DNA of 64,000 bases from Flavobacteriaceae bacterium 3519-10 (GTDB lineage: Bacteria; Bacteroidota; Bacteroidia; Flavobacteriales; Weeksellaceae): contig CP001673.1 of assembly GCA_000023725.1 (NCBI GenBank), positions 2,304,342 to 2,368,341 of the forward strand, given 5' to 3'. Made by a program: the position numbers and the translations under genes. Each line of letters starts with the position of its first letter. Position 1 is the first letter of the stretch. Shown in pieces: positions 49,274-59,794 of this stretch. A model generated the notes under the pieces. It was not told the DNA's origin and ran no database searches. It saw only the letters and a program-made list of their open reading frames with translations.

Positions 49274-49297
49274 GATATCTTTTAAAGGTATTGATTG

Positions 49298-50155
49298 ATG
49301 ATGAGATTACGAGATTGGGGGCTTAGCCCTCTTGCAGAGGTGCATGACGAGGAAAAGACGATTAATTTTTCGGGATATTCTATCCTATATTCGGCAACAG
49401 AACACATTCATTTGGTGATTTTCGATAATGAAGTTTATCTGAAACCCGAAACTTTCTATTTTATTCCTCCAAACAGTAAAATTCAGTTATTTGGTGAGTC
49501 GAGACTCGCTATTCTGATCTGGTTTAAAGTCGATCTTTTTGTGGACCGGCTTGAGTTTCTGAACCATATTAAGAAAGGTATATTTTTCAGAAATCCTTTA
49601 GGTTGGGCGGTGCCGAACAATTTTATGCCTTTTGAGTCGATCATGAAGTATTATTACCTGCCGACGCAGGAAAAGCTCATCAATAAATTATTTGCGAAAA
49701 ACCTGCTTATTAATTTCCTTGAGTTTATACTGATCCGCACGTTGATGGAGCACGATCCCAAAATGGAAGATTACCGTAAAGACAGTGTAGAGAAAGAAAT
49801 TGCGAACAACTTCGTATTTATATTGCAGAAAGAATCTACGTTTAATTTTACGATGGAATATTACGCCGATAAGCTGAATATTACCAAACGGACACTCGAT
49901 AATGCAGTGCAGACGATGTATGGCTGTACCGCGAAACGTTTTGTAATTGCAAAGGCACTCGAAAAAGCCAAGAAACTGCTCCGCGGAACAGAGATTCCTA
50001 TTAAAAACATCAGCCAGGACCTCGGGTTTTCGGAAGAAAGCAATTTCAGTAATTTTTTCAAAAAGCATACAAACAGTTCACCGCGGGAATTCCGCGACCA
50101 TGCAATAAGCCAGATCCCGACCCTGCGCATTCCCGGTCCGGAAGTAGTATCTTAA
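49298..50155 (+). CDS. AraC family transcriptional regulator
   Basis: A 285-residue regulator with an N-terminal cupin-type sensor part (about 1-150; YLKPETFYFIPPNSKIQLFG) and a C-terminal pair of helix-turn-helix motifs (MEYYADKLNITKRTLDNAVQ and IKNISQDLGFSEESNFSNFFKKHTNSSPREFR), the AraC/XylS signature. Two tandem ATGs start the frame (49298, 49301). It is 13 nt before a pilin-like subunit gene, suggesting it controls that gene and perhaps the chaperone-usher-like operon 4 kb away. Confidence 0.88.
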   Translation: MMRLRDWGLSPLAEVHDEEKTINFSGYSILYSATEHIHLVIFDNEVYLKPETFYFIPPNSKIQLFGESRLAILIWFKVDLFVDRLEFLNHIKKGIFFRNPLGWAVPNNFMPFESIMKYYYLPTQEKLINKLFAKNLLINFLEFILIRTLMEHDPKMEDYRKDSVEKEIANNFVFILQKESTFNFTMEYYADKLNITKRTLDNAVQTMYGCTAKRFVIAKALEKAKKLLRGTEIPIKNISQDLGFSEESNFSNFFKKHTNSSPREFRDHAISQIPTLRIPGPEVVS

Positions 50156-50168
50156 AAATATTAGCATT

Positions 50169-50702
50169 ATGAAAACGGCTATTATATTATTCTTTCTGTT
50201 CACGTTCTTTTCAATATATGCACACGCGCAAAATGTAGCCGTGCTCAATATCAATCTGTATCCGGTCCAGACTATTGAGGTGAATTCAGCCAGCCAGACC
50301 GTAGATCTTGATTATAAAACGCGGGACGACTACCAGGACGGCGTGTCTGTAACCAAAACGGATCATCTTAAAATTTTCAGTACCGCAGCATTTGCCGTAA
50401 AAGTAAGATCCGAAAAGCCCACACTCACCAATCCGGACAGCACCAATTCAATAAATTCATCCGACATTACAATGACGGCATCGCAGGGAACTTCCAATTC
50501 CGGAGGTAGTTTCACGTCAAGCCCTGTGCAGCTTTCAGGTTCAGACGCAGAATTTTTATCGAGTTCGAAAGGGGGCGCGAATAATACATTTAATGTAAAA
50601 TACGCTGCCAGTGGTGGCGATAAGTATATCAATAAACGCGTAAATGGGCAGAGCCCAACGGTTTATACCACGCAGGTGGTTTTCAGTATCGAACCCAGAT
50701 AA
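50169..50702 (+). CDS. secreted pilin-like subunit (paralogue of the 59228 protein)
   Basis: A 177-residue protein with a signal peptide (1-20, ending AHA-Q). The mature protein begins with an alternating hydrophobic strand VAVLNINLYP, then TVDLDYKTRDDYQDGV, LKIFSTAAFAVKVR, TMTASQGTS, and ends with VYTTQVVFSIEPR. The same pattern is in the secreted protein at 59228 and in the second domain of the one at 57368. This resembles Ig-like pilin subunits of the spore-coat-U/archaic type. It is co-transcribed with the AraC regulator, 13 nt upstream. Confidence 0.65.
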   Translation: MKTAIILFFLFTFFSIYAHAQNVAVLNINLYPVQTIEVNSASQTVDLDYKTRDDYQDGVSVTKTDHLKIFSTAAFAVKVRSEKPTLTNPDSTNSINSSDITMTASQGTSNSGGSFTSSPVQLSGSDAEFLSSSKGGANNTFNVKYAASGGDKYINKRVNGQSPTVYTTQVVFSIEPR

Positions 50703-50806: not shown

Positions 50807-50890
50807 GTGCCCGGAACAGGACTCGAACCTGCAAGCTTGTGGGCACCCGCACCTGAAACGAGCGTGTCTACCAATTTCACCATCCGGGCA
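50807..50890 (-). tRNA. tRNA-Leu(CAG)
   Basis: The minus strand folds as an 84-nt class II tRNA: acceptor TGCCCGG with CCGGGCA, D-arm region GGTGAAATTGGTAGACACG, anticodon stem CTCGT/GCGGG around the loop TTCAGGT (anticodon CAG), long variable arm, and T-loop GGTTCGAGTCC. The arm and GGTAGACACG match bacterial tRNA-Leu. CCA is not encoded. Confidence 0.93.
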
Positions 50891-51000: not shown

Positions 51001-51846
51001 TTACACTTCCGCCTCCGGCGGGTTTAAAATTTTTAGTTTCATGTCTTTTAAATCGAAAATATCATGCTCACTCATCAGATGGAGAGTCATGTTTTCGATT
51101 GAAAGCGGCGCGCCTTCTACCACTTCAAGCAGGTTGCTGTTGGTGATTCTGCGGCCGTCGAGCAGGATGCCCATGCCTGTGCCTACAGCTTCCATTTTAT
51201 TTCTGTGAATAAGCAGCGCGGTATTTTCTTCAAGGCCTACACCCAATACGGCGGGGTTGCTCACCACCACTTCGAAGAGACGCGCGATGCGGCCTCTTTC
51301 AATAAAATGCGTGTCGAAAACGATATCTTTTACTAAACCAAGGCCGGTTGCGGTGGTCACTTCGCCTTTGTAGGCAGCTTCGGTGCTGCCGCCCTGTATG
51401 ATCATGCTTTCTGAGGCTGCGGCTGCGCCGGCGGAGGTTCCGGCATAGACAAAATCCGGTTCCTGGAGTTTTTCGGTCAGCAGCTTATAAAATTCTGTGC
51501 CTCCAAGCGTTGAAGTCAGGGCAAGCTGCGAGCCGCCTGTGGCATATACGGCATCTGCTTTTTTCAGGCGTTCTATGTTCGCGGGATCGTCGGCTTCCTG
51601 GCGCGTCCGCATAATCAGCGCACCGCAGTTTTCGGCGCCGAGTTTTTTAAATATTTTAAGATAATCTTTCCCCACTTCTTCCGGAATCGACGAGGCGGAA
51701 GTAATTATTTCAATGCGTGAGCGTTTTTTCTGGCGGGTTTCATCAATAAAACGCTCAAGGATGGTGGTGTTGGAAAACCGGTCGCTGTTGCCATTCTTGT
51801 CTTCCGCACCTCCAATAACCAACACTTTACCTTTGATATTTACCAT
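51001..51846 (-). CDS. cphB: cyanophycinase
   Basis: A 281-residue serine exopeptidase with the nucleophile elbow in YAGTSAGAAAASESMI and the GKVLVIGGAEDKN start typical of CphB. It cleaves the Arg-Asp polymer cyanophycin to beta-Asp-Arg dipeptides. I chose the start at 51846 (MVNIKGKVLVIGG); the frame continues upstream to 51912, but that part overlaps cphA. It lies 19 nt after cphA on the same strand, so the polymer is made and degraded from one operon. Confidence 0.93.
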   Translation of the reverse strand: MVNIKGKVLVIGGAEDKNGNSDRFSNTTILERFIDETRQKKRSRIEIITSASSIPEEVGKDYLKIFKKLGAENCGALIMRTRQEADDPANIERLKKADAVYATGGSQLALTSTLGGTEFYKLLTEKLQEPDFVYAGTSAGAAAASESMIIQGGSTEAAYKGEVTTATGLGLVKDIVFDTHFIERGRIARLFEVVVSNPAVLGVGLEENTALLIHRNKMEAVGTGMGILLDGRRITNSNLLEVVEGAPLSIENMTLHLMSEHDIFDLKDMKLKILNPPEAEV

Positions 51847-51865
51847 ACTTCTACTATTTAATTTT

Positions 51866-54187
51866 TTAAAATATGCTTGCCGCTTTAGTGGAGTTGTTTT
51901 GCTTAAATTCATTTATGATCTCAATAACCTCCTGATAATTATCGCTTAGCGCTACAATATAATCGTCCTTTTGAGCGGTATCCAAGGCGTGCCGTATCGC
52001 CTCTTTTTCATCGGGGATAAGGTCGTATTTTACAGCGCGGCCTGCCTTTTCTATACCCTGCACCATAAGCTTATTCATTTCTGATAATTCGCGTCCACGC
52101 AGGCTGTGCTCCTGCCGTACGATGATGTGATCAAACATATTACCGGCAATTTCAGCCAGTTCCACGATATCACTGTCGCGGCGGTCGCCCACGGCGGCTA
52201 TAATTCCAACTTTTCGCGGCGCCTTAATGTGGGTGAGGTAATCCTGCATCGCGCGGAGCCCGTGCGGATTATGTGCATAATCAACGAGCACCGAGAAATC
52301 GCGCACTTTAAAATAATTCATCCGGCCAGGCGTCAGTTCGGGTCCCGGCACGAAACTCATCAGGGCATCGTGTATCTGAACGGGCGTAAAACCGTAAGAA
52401 AACGCCGCTGCGGTGGCAGCAAGAATATTGGCCGTCATACATTTCGAGGTGCCGTTTATGGTGAGCGGAATATCTTTGATTCCTGCAATAAAAGTGCGGT
52501 TTTTTCCCTGATGAATGACCAGATTCCCGTCTTCAACGGTGGTTGCGAGGCCGCCGTTTGCAATGTGTTTTTTAATTACCGCGTTGCTGTTGTCCAGTGA
52601 AAAGAAACCAATGTTACAGTCCAGCTTTTCCGCAATTTTATTACAGTGGAAATCTTCGGCATTTAAAATGGCCCAGCCGGTATTTTTTACGCTGCGAACT
52701 ACTGCAGCTTTCACTTCGGCCAGTTCTTCGAGGGTGTTGATGTTTTTGAGTCCGAGATGATCAGCGGCAATATTAGTAAGCACGGCCACGTCGCAGTAAT
52801 CGAACGCAAGGCCGGCTCTCAATAGTCCGCCACGTGCGGTTTCGAGGACCGCAAAGTCCACCATCGGATCTGCCAGAACCGTCGAGGCGCTTGACGGGCC
52901 CGAACAGTCGCCGCTCGCAATCTGATGGCCGCCGATATAGATTCCGTCGGTGGTGGTGTAGCCCGGAAAATATCCGCAGGACTGTACCAGATGCGCGAGT
53001 ATCCTTGTGGTGGTGGTTTTACCGTTGGTTCCGGTTACCGCGAAGATTGGAATCCTGCTTTCAGATTGCGGCGGAAATAACATATCGACAACGGCCGCTG
53101 CCACATTCCTGGACTTACCACGCGAGGGTTCGAGGTGCATCCTGAAACCTGGAGCCGCGTTCACTTCAATAACAGCGCCGCCGTTTTTAGCCAACGGGGT
53201 TTTAAGATCAGATGCAATAAGATCGATGCCGCAAATATCAAGACCCATCAGGGCAGCGATACGTTCGGCCATGAAACGGTTTTCAGGATGCACCTCATCG
53301 GTTACATCCACCCCGATGCCGCCGGTACTCAGGTTGGCTGTGGATTTAAGAAAGACGGTTTCGCCTTGAAGCGGCACACTTTCGAGGGTATAGTTTACTT
53401 TCTGTAACTGTCTGTCGGTATCGCAGTCGACCGTAATTTTAGTTAAAGCGGCTTCGTGACCTTCGCCGCGTTCGGGCTGTTGGTTTACCTCTTCTATCAA
53501 CTGACTGACGGTGGATTTTCCGTCGCCAATCACATGCGCAGGTACGCGACGCGTTGCTGCCACCAACTTTCCGTTCACGACGAGCATGCGGTGGTCGGCA
53601 CCTTCAATATATTTCTCAAGAATGATCTCTGAACCATAGTTTTGTGCGTGCGCAAAGGCTTCTTCGGCGGTTTTAAGATCTGTAATATTAATCGTAACGC
53701 CTTTCCCGTGATGGGCATCTACAGGTTTCAGCACAAGCGGAAAGCCGAGGTCTTCCACTGCCCCGCGCAGTTCCTCAAGCGAGCTGCAAACCACACCTTT
53801 CGGCACCGGAATGCCCGCCTGACCGAGGAGCAGCTTGGTTTCAAATTTATCGTCGGCCGTCTCCACGCCGATACATGAGGTCTGTCCGGTGATCGTTGCG
53901 CGGATAAGCTGCTGGTTTTTGCCATAACCCAAAAGGATCTTTGAGCGATCATTCATCCTGCGCCACGGGATTCCGCGACGTTCTGCCTCCTCAATGATGC
54001 TCAGCGTGCTTGGGCCGAGGCCTTCCGAGGTGGTGTGGCGCGCCAGTACAGTGCCTTCAGGATGCGTATTTCGGACAACTGTGGAATTATTTTGCGGCTC
54101 TGGATGATATGCTGAAATATCGTGTTCTGTGCCCGGCAAACCGTCTGCGACTGTAGCCTGCGCAGGCCTAATAAGGTTGTTATCCAT
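51866..54187 (-). CDS. cphA: cyanophycin synthetase, N-domain-less form
   Basis: A 773-residue ligase. ATP-grasp domain (from about residue 55; LGPSTLSIIEEAERRGIPW, VLKPVDAHHGKGVTINI, VIEVNAAPGFRMH) is followed by a Mur-ligase domain with P-loop GTNGKTTTTR and DYAHNPHGLRAMQDYL. It polymerises Asp and Arg. Typical CphA1 is about 870 residues and starts with a roughly 160-residue N domain; here that domain is absent and a short, low-complexity N-terminus (about 55 residues) replaces it. Upstream sequence shows no remnant. Confidence 0.9.
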   Translation of the reverse strand: MDNNLIRPAQATVADGLPGTEHDISAYHPEPQNNSTVVRNTHPEGTVLARHTTSEGLGPSTLSIIEEAERRGIPWRRMNDRSKILLGYGKNQQLIRATITGQTSCIGVETADDKFETKLLLGQAGIPVPKGVVCSSLEELRGAVEDLGFPLVLKPVDAHHGKGVTINITDLKTAEEAFAHAQNYGSEIILEKYIEGADHRMLVVNGKLVAATRRVPAHVIGDGKSTVSQLIEEVNQQPERGEGHEAALTKITVDCDTDRQLQKVNYTLESVPLQGETVFLKSTANLSTGGIGVDVTDEVHPENRFMAERIAALMGLDICGIDLIASDLKTPLAKNGGAVIEVNAAPGFRMHLEPSRGKSRNVAAAVVDMLFPPQSESRIPIFAVTGTNGKTTTTRILAHLVQSCGYFPGYTTTDGIYIGGHQIASGDCSGPSSASTVLADPMVDFAVLETARGGLLRAGLAFDYCDVAVLTNIAADHLGLKNINTLEELAEVKAAVVRSVKNTGWAILNAEDFHCNKIAEKLDCNIGFFSLDNSNAVIKKHIANGGLATTVEDGNLVIHQGKNRTFIAGIKDIPLTINGTSKCMTANILAATAAAFSYGFTPVQIHDALMSFVPGPELTPGRMNYFKVRDFSVLVDYAHNPHGLRAMQDYLTHIKAPRKVGIIAAVGDRRDSDIVELAEIAGNMFDHIIVRQEHSLRGRELSEMNKLMVQGIEKAGRAVKYDLIPDEKEAIRHALDTAQKDDYIVALSDNYQEVIEIINEFKQNNSTKAASIF

Positions 54188-54564: not shown

Positions 54565-57363
54565 TTACTCAGCAATTCCGAATCGTTTAATCTCGACCTT
54601 TTTTTCGCGGACTTTAAGCAAAAACTTATCGATAACTGTCACACCGCTTTCCTCAGCCACTGCAGCCTGAAGGTTATGTTCAACATAAACATTTCTCTGA
54701 AGAACCTGGCTGTCCAAAAAAACCTCGTATGAACCTAAAGGCAAATAAGCATTGTATGCGCCCTGATCATTTGTATAAAATGTAAATGTTTTGCCCAAGC
54801 TGTTCCGGAAGAGCACAGGTATCCCTGCCAGACGCTCCTGAACTTCATACTGAATTCTGGAGGTTTTCTCGTATTCAACAGTGCCGCGCATCACACCGGT
54901 CTTTTCGAGCGCAAGTATTATTAAAATCTCTTTCTGCTGAAGATCCGCTTTGGTTGTGTCTCCATACCAGTCGGTTTCGGCGGGCTTCACAATATATTCG
55001 CCGTACGGCACTTTCCGGTAGCGGATGTTGCCATCTTCATCCGCAATAAATATGGTGTTATTGATCTTTACTTTAGCCCCACGCGCCGGTTTATCGGTTT
55101 CTGCATCATACAGATTATTATTGTTGAGATCGTAGAAAGTGAAGACTTTAATCATGCCGTTTCTGTACTTCACACTCTCGTCGCCGATGCGTGGCAAGTC
55201 CTGGCTGATTCCGAACTGGTAATAACTGTTTCCGGTATCGAACCCGCCCCTCGAATACCGGTTGTAATTATAACTCCCAAAGATTTTGGTGGTACGCAAA
55301 AGCCGGTAATCGAAATGGGAACTCAGCGAAACACTGTTCCCGGTCTGGCTGTCGAGGTTGGCCAGCGTGGTAAGGTTTAAATTGAACCTGTTGTTCAGGA
55401 GCGAAAGACGGTAGTTGGCTATGGCAGAAAATTTCTCACTGTCTGAAGTCAATACTCCGTTACGGCTTCCTTCATAGAGCAGGAAATTCCCATGCTGATA
55501 ATTCGCGCTCAGCATAAAATTTCCACGGTGCCAATTGGCCTGAAAACTATAAATATGCTGCGCCTCAATTCTTCCCTCATACTGCGAGAAACCCTGTGCG
55601 TGAGCCAGTGTAAACCTGTTTCTGTTGTCTGTCGTGCTGTAGTTGAGTGCCGCAGACAGGGTTGCAGAATTAAACTTTACCGGAACCTGAGCATACGCAT
55701 CACCCAGAAAAACATCTGACTCTTCACCTGAAAGCTGCGACACCATATTCACCGAGATTCTTTTTCCAAGTGTGAAATTAGAACCAGCTTCAGCACGGTG
55801 TCTCTCCGTAAGCGAATTGAACTGATAAAGCGGTTCGATGTTCTTAGGATTATAAATATTAAGACTGTAACCGCCGTAAAGCGAAAATTTTTCAAATGTT
55901 CTGCTGATGCGATGTTCAGAAACAGTGCTGCCACGTTTGATTCCGGGATAATAACCACTGCTGTAATAATTGGAGGAACTGAATGCATATTTGTCCCAGC
56001 TTTTGCGATAGTTGAAACCTAATGAAACAGAAGATTTAGTATCGCCGGCATCCCTCGACGAGCGTGTATACCCATATCCGGCGTCGATGTCGTATGACGT
56101 GTCTTTTCTGTTGTTGAATTCGTAGCCGCTCTTCAGGATGAAGCTTTTCTGAAAAGGGTCCGTATCCAGAACCACTTCCCCATCCAACTTTTCGTTTTCG
56201 CCGAGGCTGTGTACACTTTTAGCGAAGGCAGAATATCCGCGCGGGAAATTATTCAGCCGTATCGGGTCGAAAATATTGTAGCTTTTTTCCACCGCACCGG
56301 TTGTGATCATTGTTTTGCCGGCGGCATCCGGCGTGTAAGATAATTGCGCACCACGTCCGTTCAGGTTAATTTCAAGGTCGGAACTGTTAAGATTCCCAAC
56401 CTGGAGACCGAATTGTTTATGTTCTAATTTCAGCCAAGTGTTCTGGAACAGCATCTTCGTATCAAGCGTCGGCCAGTAAGTTCCGTTAATATTGAAGATT
56501 GCATTGGTGTCGCCTACACTCACTTCAGAGCGCAGATCGATATTGTGCGAAGCAGAATACTGCTCAAACGGGTTGCTTGTCGTCCATGAAATATGGTTTT
56601 CGCTGGCTCTGCGGTAGGTGTTGTGAAGTTGCGGATCAATGTAGCGGCGGTTTCCGAGGGCATTCTGTACCATCACCATTGCATTCCCGAAAAATTCTTT
56701 ATTACTGTTCGTGCCCGCGACATTCACCGTGAAAATTTCCATTCTTAAAAGATCGCGGTCCACGATTCTTGAAAACTCCACTTTCTGGCTCGTAAAGGGC
56801 TGCAGTGTCACTTTCTTTTTAAGGACGGTTTCGCTGCCCAGATATTGGGGAAACGTTGCGAAAATTTCGGCCTGTTCGGTCTGGTTTCCGCCATTGGTTA
56901 CCTGTGTGGATATTTTCAGTGAGTCTCCCACGCGATAGATCAGCACCTGTGGCTCATTCGCAGAGATTCTCAGCAGACGTTTAGGTTCTACCGTAAGTAG
57001 CGTCTCCCACGTTGCGACTGTTTTTTCTGAAGCATCCTGAAGCTGCAGGCTAATAACCGATGAGCCTGCAGGCTGCCTTTTCTCAATAAATATCTTAAAA
57101 GGAACAAAAAGTTTTTCACCCGGATTAATCTTTACGACGGCTTTTGCATTTAGAATGCGTATTCCGTCATCCGCTTTGCTGACCAAATGTAAATCCTGAG
57201 AAATTGCAGTGTTGTTTTCAATCCGAACCATCAGACTCCGCATCTCGCCGTTAGCCGCAACCATTGCCGAATCAGTTTCGATTGAGACCTTGCCGCTCTG
57301 GGAATAAGCGGCTATCGTTCCGAAAATGAAAAAAAAGCTGAATATGGTCCTTAGCAAGCGCAA
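54565..57363 (-). CDS. outer-membrane beta-barrel, usher-like component of a chaperone-usher-type system
   Basis: A 932-residue exported protein: signal peptide (1-22), two Ig-like beta domains (about 23-235), a long run of alternating strands (about 240-745) with many aromatic ends (YAFSSSNYYSSGYYPGIKRG, FDYRLLRTTKIFGSYNYN) fitting a large outer-membrane barrel, and C-terminal beta domains: FTFYDLNNNNLYDAETDKPARGAKVKI (about 750-830) and an SdrD/carboxypeptidase-regulatory type domain to 932. Classical ushers have an N-domain, a barrel with plug, and two C-domains; the layout is similar but sequence identity is not visible. It starts 4 nt after the tip-like gene in the operon. Confidence 0.6.
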   Translation of the reverse strand: MRLLRTIFSFFFIFGTIAAYSQSGKVSIETDSAMVAANGEMRSLMVRIENNTAISQDLHLVSKADDGIRILNAKAVVKINPGEKLFVPFKIFIEKRQPAGSSVISLQLQDASEKTVATWETLLTVEPKRLLRISANEPQVLIYRVGDSLKISTQVTNGGNQTEQAEIFATFPQYLGSETVLKKKVTLQPFTSQKVEFSRIVDRDLLRMEIFTVNVAGTNSNKEFFGNAMVMVQNALGNRRYIDPQLHNTYRRASENHISWTTSNPFEQYSASHNIDLRSEVSVGDTNAIFNINGTYWPTLDTKMLFQNTWLKLEHKQFGLQVGNLNSSDLEINLNGRGAQLSYTPDAAGKTMITTGAVEKSYNIFDPIRLNNFPRGYSAFAKSVHSLGENEKLDGEVVLDTDPFQKSFILKSGYEFNNRKDTSYDIDAGYGYTRSSRDAGDTKSSVSLGFNYRKSWDKYAFSSSNYYSSGYYPGIKRGSTVSEHRISRTFEKFSLYGGYSLNIYNPKNIEPLYQFNSLTERHRAEAGSNFTLGKRISVNMVSQLSGEESDVFLGDAYAQVPVKFNSATLSAALNYSTTDNRNRFTLAHAQGFSQYEGRIEAQHIYSFQANWHRGNFMLSANYQHGNFLLYEGSRNGVLTSDSEKFSAIANYRLSLLNNRFNLNLTTLANLDSQTGNSVSLSSHFDYRLLRTTKIFGSYNYNRYSRGGFDTGNSYYQFGISQDLPRIGDESVKYRNGMIKVFTFYDLNNNNLYDAETDKPARGAKVKINNTIFIADEDGNIRYRKVPYGEYIVKPAETDWYGDTTKADLQQKEILIILALEKTGVMRGTVEYEKTSRIQYEVQERLAGIPVLFRNSLGKTFTFYTNDQGAYNAYLPLGSYEVFLDSQVLQRNVYVEHNLQAAVAEESGVTVIDKFLLKVREKKVEIKRFGIAE

Positions 57364-57367
57364 AATG

Positions 57368-58378
57368 TTATTGAGGAATCATGGTAAATACCAGTGTTCC
57401 GGAGTATTGTTCAGATGATTTGTTAAGAAATGTGGTATCGCCGGCCTGGGTGGAATATACAGTGTCGAAAAACTTATTTGCACTGTGCGCAGTGCTTGTG
57501 ATTATATTCTGCTGGGCACTCGAAAGACTCACCGTCCCCTTAACTGTCTGGGTTTGATTATCGCGAACGCTTAACTGCACTGCGCTTACGGGCAATGTTT
57601 TATTGGTAGTGCTTGTGAGATTGCCGGTAAGGGTGTTAACACGAATCACATAAGGCGTGTTGGAGAATGTTGAAAAAGCCTTTGTCTGAGTTTTCGTTAC
57701 GCCGTTCGCATAATCACTGGCGGTTTTAAATTCCAGGAGTACGGTTTTGGCGCTGGGATCGAACTGCAGTCCGTAGGTTGGTGTTTGAGGCGGGGAATCA
57801 TTTGGATATACCTGCATATCGAAACTGACAGGCTGGGAATGCATAATTTCATTCTTACGGTTCCGGATTTCGACAATTAGATTTACTTTATAATTTGCCC
57901 ATGATTTATATTTTTCAAGATACGCCCCACCTTCTGCTGTGACGTCATATTTTAAATTCAAATAAGCGTACCCATTAACTTCCAGATTATACGGGGAATT
58001 CTGAACAAAAAAGGATTCAATTGTGGTAAACGGAAGCGGCCCGGTGATAAGGCGCAAATTTTGAGCGGTCGGCGCGTTGTTACCATTGGGAAATGGTGCA
58101 GTAGCGTCCAAACTGTTAAATCTAAAATTTAATTTCTCAACCGGAAAGTTTTCTGTCCCATTAGTTATCGAACCAACAACACGATATGTTAAGGACCACT
58201 GCTTCATCTGAGTTCCATTAGAATCGTTCAGGTGGATCCGGACGTTTATAAGATTGTTTATAGTGGCACCACTGTAGCTTGAAACAGGAAGAAATCCGGT
58301 ATTATGAGGGTTCAGTGTTACCTGAGACCAGCAAGCTGAATATAGCAGAAATGAAATAAAAAGTATTAATTTATTCAT
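57368..58378 (-). CDS. two-domain secreted protein with C-terminal pilin-like domain (tip adhesin-like)
   Basis: A 336-residue protein: signal peptide (1-19, ending WSQ), an N-terminal beta domain (about 20-180), then a pilin-like domain from about 183 (VSFDMQVYP..., TVLLEFKTASDYANGV, FSTFSNTPYVIRV, and terminal YSGTLVFTMIPQ). The second domain shares its signature with the subunits at 59228 and 50169. A distinct N domain joined to a pilin domain is the layout of tip adhesins. I use MNKLIL at 58378; it overlaps the chaperone stop by 8 nt. The receptor is unknown. Confidence 0.65.
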   Translation of the reverse strand: MNKLILFISFLLYSACWSQVTLNPHNTGFLPVSSYSGATINNLINVRIHLNDSNGTQMKQWSLTYRVVGSITNGTENFPVEKLNFRFNSLDATAPFPNGNNAPTAQNLRLITGPLPFTTIESFFVQNSPYNLEVNGYAYLNLKYDVTAEGGAYLEKYKSWANYKVNLIVEIRNRKNEIMHSQPVSFDMQVYPNDSPPQTPTYGLQFDPSAKTVLLEFKTASDYANGVTKTQTKAFSTFSNTPYVIRVNTLTGNLTSTTNKTLPVSAVQLSVRDNQTQTVKGTVSLSSAQQNIITSTAHSANKFFDTVYSTQAGDTTFLNKSSEQYSGTLVFTMIPQ

Positions 58379-59165
58379 ACACAAAAGCCAGTTCGGCCAT
58401 TTTTATCGTATCATCATCGCCATAAGAAAGGGTTGAAGACGCGGTGTATTTTCCGGGTTTTAAATCTGCTGGAAGCGGTACGCTCACATTTCTTTTGTCT
58501 CCCGGAAGCGTGTAAATAATCTGATCTTCAAGTTCGTATTTGGTGCCGTCGTTGACGTTAACCAATTCTGTGATCACCGTTCCGTCAGTCCAGATGTTGC
58601 CGGTATTTTCAAGCGCAAGCTGCAAACTGCCTGATTTTTTATCCAACAGATAATTATTGAATTCAATACTCGCATTGGCAGACGAATTATAACGGTGATA
58701 AATCTTCACGCCCGAACGTAAGCTCACTTTCACCAATGCGCCCTGCTCGAATGAATCTACAGGATTTGTCTGCGTAATGAACAGCAGCGACGTATGTACA
58801 TCAACCGAATCTTTTTGAGCTGGAGCCACTACTGTAACTTCGAGTTCATGCGTTTCGCCCGGTGCCAGCGTGAAATAAGACTGAGGTTTAATGGTAATCC
58901 ACGGCGTTGCTGAATTAACCAGCGTGCCGGCGTCTGCAACCACATTATTTCCCTGTTCATCATATTGCCAGTCGCTGAGTGAAACCGTCAGATTCAAAGA
59001 AACATCTTTACTCGTATTGGTCACCAGAATCTTATTTATACTCGATTGCCATGCGGCAGAAGTGACGTACGTCCGTGGTGGACTTACGCTTAATCCGGTC
59101 TGTGCGAGAGCGGTGCCAAACGGAAATAACAGAAAGACGGGAAGATATCTGAAAAATTTATTCAT
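58371..59165 (-). CDS. PapD-like periplasmic chaperone
   Basis: A 264-residue exported protein: signal peptide (1-22), then two Ig-like domains. Domain 1 has GLSVSPPRTYV with Arg31 and the strand ALVKVSLRSGVKIYHRYN with Lys154, which align to Arg8 and Lys112 of PapD, the pair that grips subunit C-termini. ITIKPQSYFTLAPGETHELEV matches the usual turn before the G1-side strands. Domain 2 is about 160-264. It would fold and cap subunits before handing them to the barrel protein. I chose 59165 (MNKFFRY) over a Met six codons upstream. Confidence 0.8.
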   Translation of the reverse strand: MNKFFRYLPVFLLFPFGTALAQTGLSVSPPRTYVTSAAWQSSINKILVTNTSKDVSLNLTVSLSDWQYDEQGNNVVADAGTLVNSATPWITIKPQSYFTLAPGETHELEVTVVAPAQKDSVDVHTSLLFITQTNPVDSFEQGALVKVSLRSGVKIYHRYNSSANASIEFNNYLLDKKSGSLQLALENTGNIWTDGTVITELVNVNDGTKYELEDQIIYTLPGDKRNVSVPLPADLKPGKYTASSTLSYGDDDTIKMAELAFVYE

Positions 59166-59175
59166 AGAATTGCAA

Positions 59176-59208
59176 AAAGACAATTTAAGAAGTTCTTAAA
59201 TTGTCTTT
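59176..59208 (-). terminator. 33-nt palindrome after the major subunit gene
   Basis: Arms AAAGACAATTTAAGAA (59176-59191) and TTCTTAAATTGTCTTT (59193-59208) are exact complements with one central base. On the minus strand it lies 20 nt after the subunit stop and is followed by TTTTTGC, so it could act as a partial terminator or protect the upstream mRNA. Confidence 0.7.
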
Positions 59209-59227
59209 AAATATATTGATAAAATAA

Positions 59228-59794
59228 TTACTTCGCGATGATAGAGTAAGTAAGACTCGCTGTATAAGTAGTAGGTGTGGTGCCTTTTACAACACGTGAC
59301 AAATACTCGTTGTTGCCAGCAGCTTTATAATTAACATTTATATTTCCACTTCCAAAAGTATCACTTCCACCAATGATTTGATCATTTTGTGTAAGAGTTA
59401 CAGCGGTCAACGGCGTAAATCCTGTTAAAGGGTTCGTAGACCCCTGCGTAGCAAGAATTTGAATATCCTTCAAAGGAATAGCAGTAGTTCCAGTCGGACC
59501 TGTTAAACTAGCAGCGTTTGACTTTACTTTTACATCAAATGCCCCTGTACTGAATACTGTTAAGTGGTTAGCTTCTGTTTTGTTAACTCCTCCTAAGTAG
59601 TCCGCAGATGTTTTATAGTCTAAATTTACTACGCTTGATGATGGATTCACTGTGATAGACTGCAAAGGATAAAGATTCACGTTAAGTGTTACGTTTCCTG
59701 TTGCAGGCCCTGCATTTGTGTAGGTTGATGCGGTTTGCGCATTAGCTGCAAAAAGACCCCCTAAAAGGCCAATAAATAAAATTCCTTTTTTCAT
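59228..59794 (-). CDS. major pilin-like secreted subunit
   Basis: A 188-residue protein, signal peptide 1-20. The mature N-terminus has TASTYTNAGPATG, then a strand with alternating hydrophobics, VTLNVNLYPLQSITV (35-49), which resembles donor strands of archaic pilins (such as the segment GQVDVKLNIS in CsuA/B); then VVNLDYKTSADYLGGV, FSTGAFDVKVK, ILATQGST, and the terminal strand TYTASLTYSIIAK. First gene of the operon, with the strongest likely expression because of the hairpin behind it. Homology to pilins is by pattern and not established. Confidence 0.7.
   Translation of the reverse strand: MKKGILFIGLLGGLFAANAQTASTYTNAGPATGNVTLNVNLYPLQSITVNPSSSVVNLDYKTSADYLGGVNKTEANHLTVFSTGAFDVKVKSNAASLTGPTGTTAIPLKDIQILATQGSTNPLTGFTPLTAVTLTQNDQIIGGSDTFGSGNINVNYKAAGNNEYLSRVVKGTTPTTYTASLTYSIIAK

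Follow-up and report, generated by a model that had tools for sequence, protein, structure and literature searches.

Does the assembly pathway for hair-like surface fibres, long studied in gut bacteria, have a flavobacterial version too diverged for standard databases to recognise? The question is raised by a locus at positions 54565-59794 of a 64,000-nucleotide stretch of DNA from Flavobacteriaceae bacterium 3519-10, which was analysed as a whole (G000:C1:2304342-2368341, hereafter the window) and belongs to a 2.77-Mb single-contig genome. A first-pass annotation had proposed a chaperone-usher pilus operon of four same-strand genes, and the corresponding minus-strand open reading frames are indeed found:

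59228-59794, minus strand: SUB, candidate major subunit, secreted (188 aa; 31-row family A4; no Pfam family)
58371-59183, minus strand: CHAP, periplasmic PapD-superfamily chaperone with two domains (270 aa from a TTG; ATG at 59165)
57368-58384, minus strand: TIP, tip-like protein (ATG at 58378) with a C-terminal SUB-type pilin domain at residues 206-338
54565-57363, minus strand: USH, usher-like outer-membrane protein (932 aa, TTG start; alignment A2)

The proposed gaps of 62, -8 and 4 nt are right with the ATG starts of CHAP and TIP, and the motifs quoted at the time are present. All four N-termini resemble signal peptides (judged by eye). None of the proteins scored over a cut-off in single-sequence Pfam and NCBIfam scans, PHROGs gave no match at an E-value of 0.01, and a single-sequence search of the PDB returned nothing relevant for CHAP or USH.

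Our answer is that this is very probably an operon for a chaperone-usher pilus and falls in a divergent class. Sequence comparison points to this through the homology of CHAP, the homology of USH by way of intermediates, the linkage of the genes and the domain shared by TIP and SUB. We infer strand donation, polymerisation, the location of TIP at the tip, its binding role and the regulation of the locus.

Homology of the chaperone

On profile evidence CHAP is a PapD-superfamily homologue. Comparison of the CHAP family (54 rows) with seven chaperones of Escherichia coli K-12 using hhalign gave 96.2% over both domains, and 90.5% after removal of the signal peptides (reversed control 0.1%); the 17-row core of the family gave 95.8%, and EcpB scored 86-90% against wide CHAP sets. 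This agrees with the two-domain, Ig-like architecture proposed for this protein. PapD_N matches two of the 18 members of the CHAP alignment (A1), with 0.03 as the best value.

The annotation had also pointed to a PapD-type pair, Arg31 and Lys154 (Arg37 and Lys160 counted from the TTG). In the profile alignment these residues coincide with an Arg (in 'GATR') and a Lys (in 'RIKLYYR') of E. coli FimC, which we take to be Arg8 and Lys112. The Arg is kept in 17 of 17 same-family chaperones and in 32 of 58 family-wide; the Lys occurs in 12 of the 17 (His in the other five) and in 18 of the 58. The pair is real, but limited to a clade rather than a property of the family.

By sequence, the nearest solved relative of CHAP is EfmWxLIP1 (9i1y; E-value 1.9e-7, full length). 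The CHAP family scores 98.6% against four WxL-interacting proteins (WxLIPs) (core 94.1%, reversed 0.2%), and the Pfam family WxLIP_PGBD matches six of 18 CHAP members (best 1.4e-7). Since the K-12 chaperones give only 0.3% against WxLIP directly whereas CHAP aligns to both, the CHAP family can be regarded as a bridge between PapD and WxLIP. As a side observation (CHAP family, L149-L152), PapD-type chaperones and the Gram-positive WxL-interacting proteins appear to be homologous via this family; the SUB and WxL domains are unaligned.

These scores bring in a different explanation, namely that the locus encodes a surface complex that does not polymerise, comparable to the WxL clusters of Gram-positive bacteria, in which CHAP would be a WxLIP-like stabiliser remaining attached to its small and large partners and USH would export or anchor these, with no fibre at all. 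The family does score higher against WxLIP than against the K-12 chaperones, one third of its members match WxLIP_PGBD, and WxL clusters likewise hold small, large and two-domain proteins. Yet the window CHAP lacks the C-terminal transmembrane helix described for WxLIP, an usher homologue is present at the locus, related subunits match PDB entries of 16 chains (see below), and SUB does not align with WxL (1%). We consider this explanation improbable.

Distribution and linkage of the genes

A chaperone search led to named relatives at 61-63% identity, one Kaistella sp., one Chryseobacterium sp. and one metagenome-assembled genome of Weeksellaceae, which makes Weeksellaceae the likely family of the source genome. 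As a single query the window CHAP finds matches in 14 of 100 near genomes, and the 18-row profile, at an E-value of 1e-5, finds them in 56 of 395 genomes from the GTDB phylum Bacteroidota. We read 63 regions (the window plus 17, 40 and 5, the 40 being part of the places from the 395-genome search) and recovered a chaperone open reading frame in 58 of them; L035, L086, L087, L088 and L107 are outside this number. A gene matching the USH profile lies within 4 kb of CHAP in 51 of the 58 places (49 on the same strand), and in 35 of 42 when the 16 loci that supplied rows to the USH profile are left aside. A gene of more than 800 aa stands on the same strand in 54 places, and a SUB-profile gene is present in 41. 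The order SUB-CHAP-TIP-USH recurs in other genomes; taken together with the USH linkage, this indicates that the operon is more than a chance arrangement.

The chaperone places without an USH match are L031, L091, L092, L097, L102, L103 and L108. Four of these (L031, L097, L103 and L108) have a large neighbouring gene with a C-terminal CarboxypepD_reg/SpaA-type domain; no such neighbour is seen in L091 and L092. At L031:6314-10212 (G088) a very divergent CHAP stands beside a 1025-aa protein with C-terminal SpaA/CarboxypepD_reg domains and a lipoprotein-like N-terminus, which the USH profile does not match. Two contig ends of one assembly (G026, C28 and C33; L022 and L035) carry a CHAP-TIP-USH half and a subunit half, probably a single locus split by the assembly.

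The usher-like barrel

USH appears from profile comparisons to be a diverged usher homologue, recognised via intermediates only. The first-pass annotation had described a barrel unlike any known usher; this holds in so far as the usher family PF00577 finds no match, but the protein is nonetheless related to ushers. PF00577 scores over its cut-off in none of 198 Bacteroidota genomes. The sole match below threshold in these genomes is a barrel gene beside a CHAP homologue in G269 (E-value 5.4e-5), in which residues 239-414 align with positions 24-203 of the profile. Used as a query, this barrel picks up annotated Klebsiella ushers over that region (E-value 6e-4), as well as plasmid-borne barrels from Polaromonas, Novosphingobium, Pseudoalteromonas and Sphingopyxis. 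Among the four plasmid loci that were opened (L120-L123), three have annotated DUF4402 genes beside chaperone and barrel; in the Polaromonas and Sphingopyxis relatives the order is DUF4402 subunit(s), annotated chaperone, barrel. PapD_N exceeds the Pfam cut-off in the Polaromonas chaperone and one Pseudoalteromonas chaperone (1.6e-5 and 7e-5), and stays below it in that of Sphingopyxis.

Sixteen barrels were used as a bridge: the four proteobacterial ones and 12 from USH-profile neighbours of CHAP genes, the former having been found through one of the latter. Together they score 97.6% over 572 columns against seven enterobacterial ushers and 99.7% over 792 columns against 17 window-type barrels, with zero rows in common. 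The four proteobacterial barrels alone give 95.3% and 97.3%, respectively, and the four and the 12 taken separately each reach 95% against ushers and 97.3-99.6% against window-type barrels. Control barrels (FhuA, BamA and LptD) score at most 0.8% in these runs, 2.5% in another run and 4.0% in barrel-only runs, while reversed profiles give at most 1.5%. Two further comparisons were put aside: F44bar against Pbar (99.6%) because it is circular, with 10 rows in common, and the 58-row mixed set X_USH against ushers (83%) because it includes bridging rows.

The layout of USH comprises an N-terminal Ig-like domain (residues about 23-130), a probable second one (about 131-220), the barrel (about 240-735) and two C-terminal transthyretin-like domains (about 735-930). 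The latter agree with the C-terminal domain region that had been expected on the barrel; CarboxypepD_reg matches the C-terminus in 12 and SpaA in seven of 17 USH members (E-value 0.05). An AlphaFold model from four rows reaches a mean predicted local distance difference test (pLDDT) score of 43.7 and is usable only at about 25-130, patchily to 220, and at about 825-920. VIA structure comparison, mainly of residues 23-130, returns generic Ig-like domains, including complement and Caf1M; this list contains no usher, an absence that excludes nothing. Against the reference usher N-terminal domain the N-terminal region gives no alignment (0.2%). The alignment of bridging barrels and ushers spans the stretch where, we assume, FimD-type ushers have their plug; in window-type USH the plug seems to be absent, because this stretch aligns with barrel-like sequence. 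From the model, which in the N-terminal part is confident for residues about 23-130 only, and from the alignments, USH seems to have N-terminal domains of Ig type and to lack a recognisable plug. An origin of the N-terminus by duplication of the chaperone was considered as well and is unproven: the initial 97.5% drops to 1.8% (core) or 50% (wider set) after signal-peptide removal.

Subunits and tip-like protein

In SUB, a donor-strand-like segment at the N-terminus (NVTLNVNLYP) precedes a pilin-type domain, which finishes with a C-terminal beta-strand pattern. The SUB profile spans all of SUB and of a second subunit, SUB2, described below. On TIP it matches residues 206-338 (E-value 6.6e-20), in line with the earlier claim of a shared domain, and the match begins at model position 40, past the donor-strand-like segment. 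In nine of nine TIPs of the same type the C-terminal match likewise starts at positions 35-43, after the donor-strand-like stretch 'TATVTLNIKLEP'. TIPs of the window operon type have the pilin domain in common with SUB and lack its N-terminal donor-strand-like segment. The N-terminal domain of TIP covers residues about 20-200, and the TIP profile has no convincing match in the PDB (best E-value 0.28).

The SUB signal peptide has no lipobox cysteine. No FimA/Mfa-type Pfam family matches any of the 31 SUB members; FimA-like_C appears at 0.0068 in one of 12 TIPs. SCPU (PF05229) gives no match at an E-value of 0.05 among the 31 members, although fast-evolving subunits can escape such detection. 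In distant CHAP loci, DUF4402 matches one small gene over the cut-off (2.1e-6) and another below it (4.8e-4).

Might the locus simply belong to the archaic chaperone-usher class that has already been described? In the four proteobacterial relatives the G1 strand is of the 'PVIVR' type, which we take to resemble that of archaic chaperones. Two papers report archaic systems in many phyla (PMC9452303, PMC10104325). A third (PMC4654587) reports archaic chaperones without analogues of the classical Arg and Lys, whereas the window clade has the pair; moreover, PF00577 scores over its cut-off in none of the 198 genomes and the SUB members show no match to SCPU. Judged by these published features and Pfam searches, and not by comparison with archaic usher or chaperone sequences, membership of the archaic class is very unlikely.

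Relation to the TLP fibres

The best PDB matches of the SUB profile are weak: TLP-2 (E-value 0.035) and TLP-1 (0.075), with 16 chains each. These entries (9ikj and 9ikk) presumably belong to the CryoSeek fibrils from pond water. A 59-residue stretch of TLP-2 finds one of 395 Bacteroidota genomes, where it matches two SUB genes beside CHAP and USH, at a locus already among the CHAP-profile matches. In the family of that genome six of 196 genomes have a TLP match, and in all six two TLP-like genes stand beside CHAP and USH. These six genomes of one family (L081, L137-L141), with paired TLP-like subunits, are a possible source lineage of TLP-1 and TLP-2. Searched against the PDB, one TLP-like subunit finds only TLP-2 (4.9e-9) and TLP-1 (3.1e-8), and the SUB family scores 97.3% (E-value 2.3e-11) against the TLP-like set, with reversed controls of at most 0.1%. 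Homology can be followed from the SUB family over the TLP-like subunits to TLP-2. In the second TLP-like gene of the four such loci tested, the match starts at model position 38 and the N-terminal segment is missing, as would be expected of a tip. A 2026 perspective (PMC12967142) states that the identity of filaments solved from pond water was not conclusive. Viral contigs yielded no relatives, and plasmids none of the TLP fragment, the window USH or the L097 barrel.

Weighing the chaperone-usher assignment

Several observations weigh against a chaperone-usher pilus. For the chaperone, EcpB scores only 0.5% against the 17-row core, and generic Ig-type Pfam families score equal to WxLIP_PGBD or PapD_N on the A1 members. 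On the subunit side, there is no support for SUB as a FimA-type pilin (0.3%) or as a DUF4402 protein (2.5% against the DUF4402 set), and its structure model from a single sequence failed (pLDDT 31). The rule that TIP lacks the donor-strand-like segment is weakened by six TIPs of a second locus type, in which the strand preceding the domain resembles that segment, so that their match already begins at 18-23. As to the barrel, PF00577 matches neither any protein of the window nor the 17 USH members, and the USH model is not confident in its barrel. Direct comparison with enterobacterial ushers yields 9% for window-type USH and 2% for its barrel alone (10.4% with 44 rows; not significant), and against the bridging set the barrel scores 52%; given these low values, the usher link leans on the C-terminal domains and the intermediates. 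The match of bridging barrels to the window type is moreover partly due to selection, as 12 of the 16 were picked as USH-profile neighbours. The fibre of this organism, finally, is a prediction from its genes.

The low direct score of the barrel, together with an Ig-like N-terminal module that does not align with the usher domain, would also suit a different exporter that merely adjoins chaperone and subunits. Both groups of bridging barrels, however, connect ushers with the window type, whereas LptD and FhuA stay below 1%; such a coincidence is hardly credible. The chaperone-usher reading proposed in the first-pass annotation is supported by chaperone and usher homology, by a barrel that carries two C-terminal domains, by gene order and by the donor-strand logic of SUB versus TIP.

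A wider synthesis has, in our judgement, an even chance of being right. The locus would represent an unnamed chaperone-usher class, present across several classes and families of Bacteroidota (as a GTDB phylum) and in some Proteobacteria, whose usher has Ig-like N-terminal domains and which builds the TLP-type fibres solved from the environment. Its chaperones would connect PapD with WxLIP in evolution, which would make the Gram-positive WxL clusters a counterpart, without usher, within one and the same strand-donation system.

Organisation and regulation of the locus

The four-gene operon that had been described stands as such, but the locus is larger and a second gene order exists. Further features of the window are:

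49295-50155, plus strand: AraC-family regulator (HTH_18, 8.8e-20)
50169-50702, plus strand: SUB2, second subunit of the SUB family (177 aa; SUB profile E-value 1.8e-70)
50807-50889: tRNA-Leu(CAG), between SUB2 and USH
51001-54187: cyanophycin-type genes, between SUB2 and USH
59176-59208, minus strand: perfect inverted repeat between SUB and CHAP (I10), with 16-nt arms and a 1-nt spacer, followed by a T run

The AraC regulator and SUB2 (49295-50702) are part of the pilus locus, since relatives carry their counterparts next to the operon. L019 and L025 have AraC, subunits, CHAP, TIP and USH in this order, all on one strand; L020, L021 and L023 look the same in gene order, and regulators beside the operon were typed as AraC-type in L019, L025, L027 and L028. 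In the window the AraC gene and SUB2 are on the plus strand and the segment from SUB to USH is inverted relative to them. This segment is also inverted with respect to the flanks seen in relatives such as L019 (DinB-type polymerase, YceI and alpha-amylase). An invertible switch was considered and dropped: no convincing inverted repeat flanks the segment, and the longest inverted pairs, of 30-32 nt (72-80%), are located inside genes or next to them. The gene pair at 51001-54187 encodes a Peptidase S51 protein (cyanophycinase-type) and a Mur-ligase/ATP-grasp protein of the cyanophycin-synthetase type; the other loci scanned contain no relative of the Mur-ligase gene, and no tRNA occurs at that place in the loci of 10 relatives.

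The second gene order places the subunits before CHAP, USH and a larger TIP. It is found in the source genome itself, near G000:C1:796848-804164 (L033), as three SUB genes, CHAP, USH and a TIP of 476 aa. All seven SUB-domain genes detected in this genome (E-value 0.01) sit in its two CHAP-USH loci. In L033 (G000:C1:792500-806500) a PAS hybrid histidine kinase follows the 476-aa TIP, and the related L034 has a LuxR-type response regulator nearby.

The repeat between SUB and CHAP folds as RNA with a z-score of -5.0. Of 22 SUB-CHAP gaps that were folded, 15 show a hairpin followed by a T run (by reading of the folds), and 11 reach a z-score of -3 or lower against simple shuffles. The repeat may act as a partial terminator or attenuator.

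Proposed mechanism

SUB, SUB2 and TIP would enter the periplasm via Sec, where CHAP would bind the subunits and supply the strand that completes their fold, with Arg37 and Lys160 anchoring the subunit C-terminus. The chaperone-subunit complexes would then be delivered to USH and the fibre secreted through its barrel, Ig-like N-terminal domains replacing the classical usher N-terminal domain and no recognisable plug being present. The N-terminal segment of an incoming SUB would take over the position of the chaperone strand in the subunit before it (donor-strand exchange), and TIP, without a donor segment, may cap the growing end and bear a binding domain. The hairpin after SUB probably keeps expression of the machinery below that of the major subunit, with the AraC protein as probable regulator.

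Significance

A divergent class in Bacteroidota would mean a further surface organelle for this major phylum, in which type V fimbriae are the best known. The locus family also offers a gene-level lead for TLP-1 and TLP-2, and related genes may explain fibres imaged by electron microscopy that were never assigned to a microbe. In addition, the CHAP family suggests a testable shared origin of PapD chaperones and WxL-interacting proteins. Literature searches on chaperone-usher systems in Bacteroidetes, Chryseobacterium or Flavobacteria, which left most subscription papers and all bioRxiv preprints outside, found no description of such an operon, and the literature searched held no paper with 'DUF4402'. 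Because of this limited search we do not claim a proven new class. One paper names proteobacteria, cyanobacteria and Deinococcota for the spread of chaperone-usher systems (PMC10104325).

Comparison with known systems

Like Fim and Pap pili, the window locus combines in one operon a subunit, a PapD-superfamily chaperone, an usher homologue (via intermediates) and a two-domain tip-like protein, and its chaperone has the Arg/Lys pair aligned with FimC. Unlike in those systems, USH falls below Pfam usher detection, has Ig-like N-terminal domains and no recognisable plug, and SUB is unalignable to FimA-type pilins. Type V pili (FimA/Mfa1) differ as well: their precursors are lipoproteins, whereas SUB has no lipobox cysteine and none of the 31 SUB proteins gives such a Pfam match.

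With the archaic Csu and CupE systems the locus shares the general logic and a wide phyletic spread. It departs from them in the classical-type anchor pair of the window clade, in the lack of SCPU matches and in PF00577 staying below its cut-off in the 198 Bacteroidota genomes, a distinction drawn from descriptions of archaic systems and not from archaic sequences.

The WxLIPs (DUF916-DUF3324) show full-length homology with CHAP and likewise come in clusters with small and large partners. They are Gram-positive, membrane-anchored and without usher, and their partner domains are unalignable with SUB, whereas the C-terminus of the window CHAP (KMAELAFVYE) contains no hydrophobic helix. According to the WxLIP paper, AlphaFold2 predicts a DUF916 strand inserting into WxL; the text of the paper does not mention pilus, chaperone, PapD, donor strand or usher. 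Closest on the side of the fibre are TLP-1 and TLP-2 (PDB 9ikj, 9ikk): the direct match of the SUB profile to TLP-2 is weak, but over its domain the SUB family aligns at 97.3% with the TLP-like subunits.

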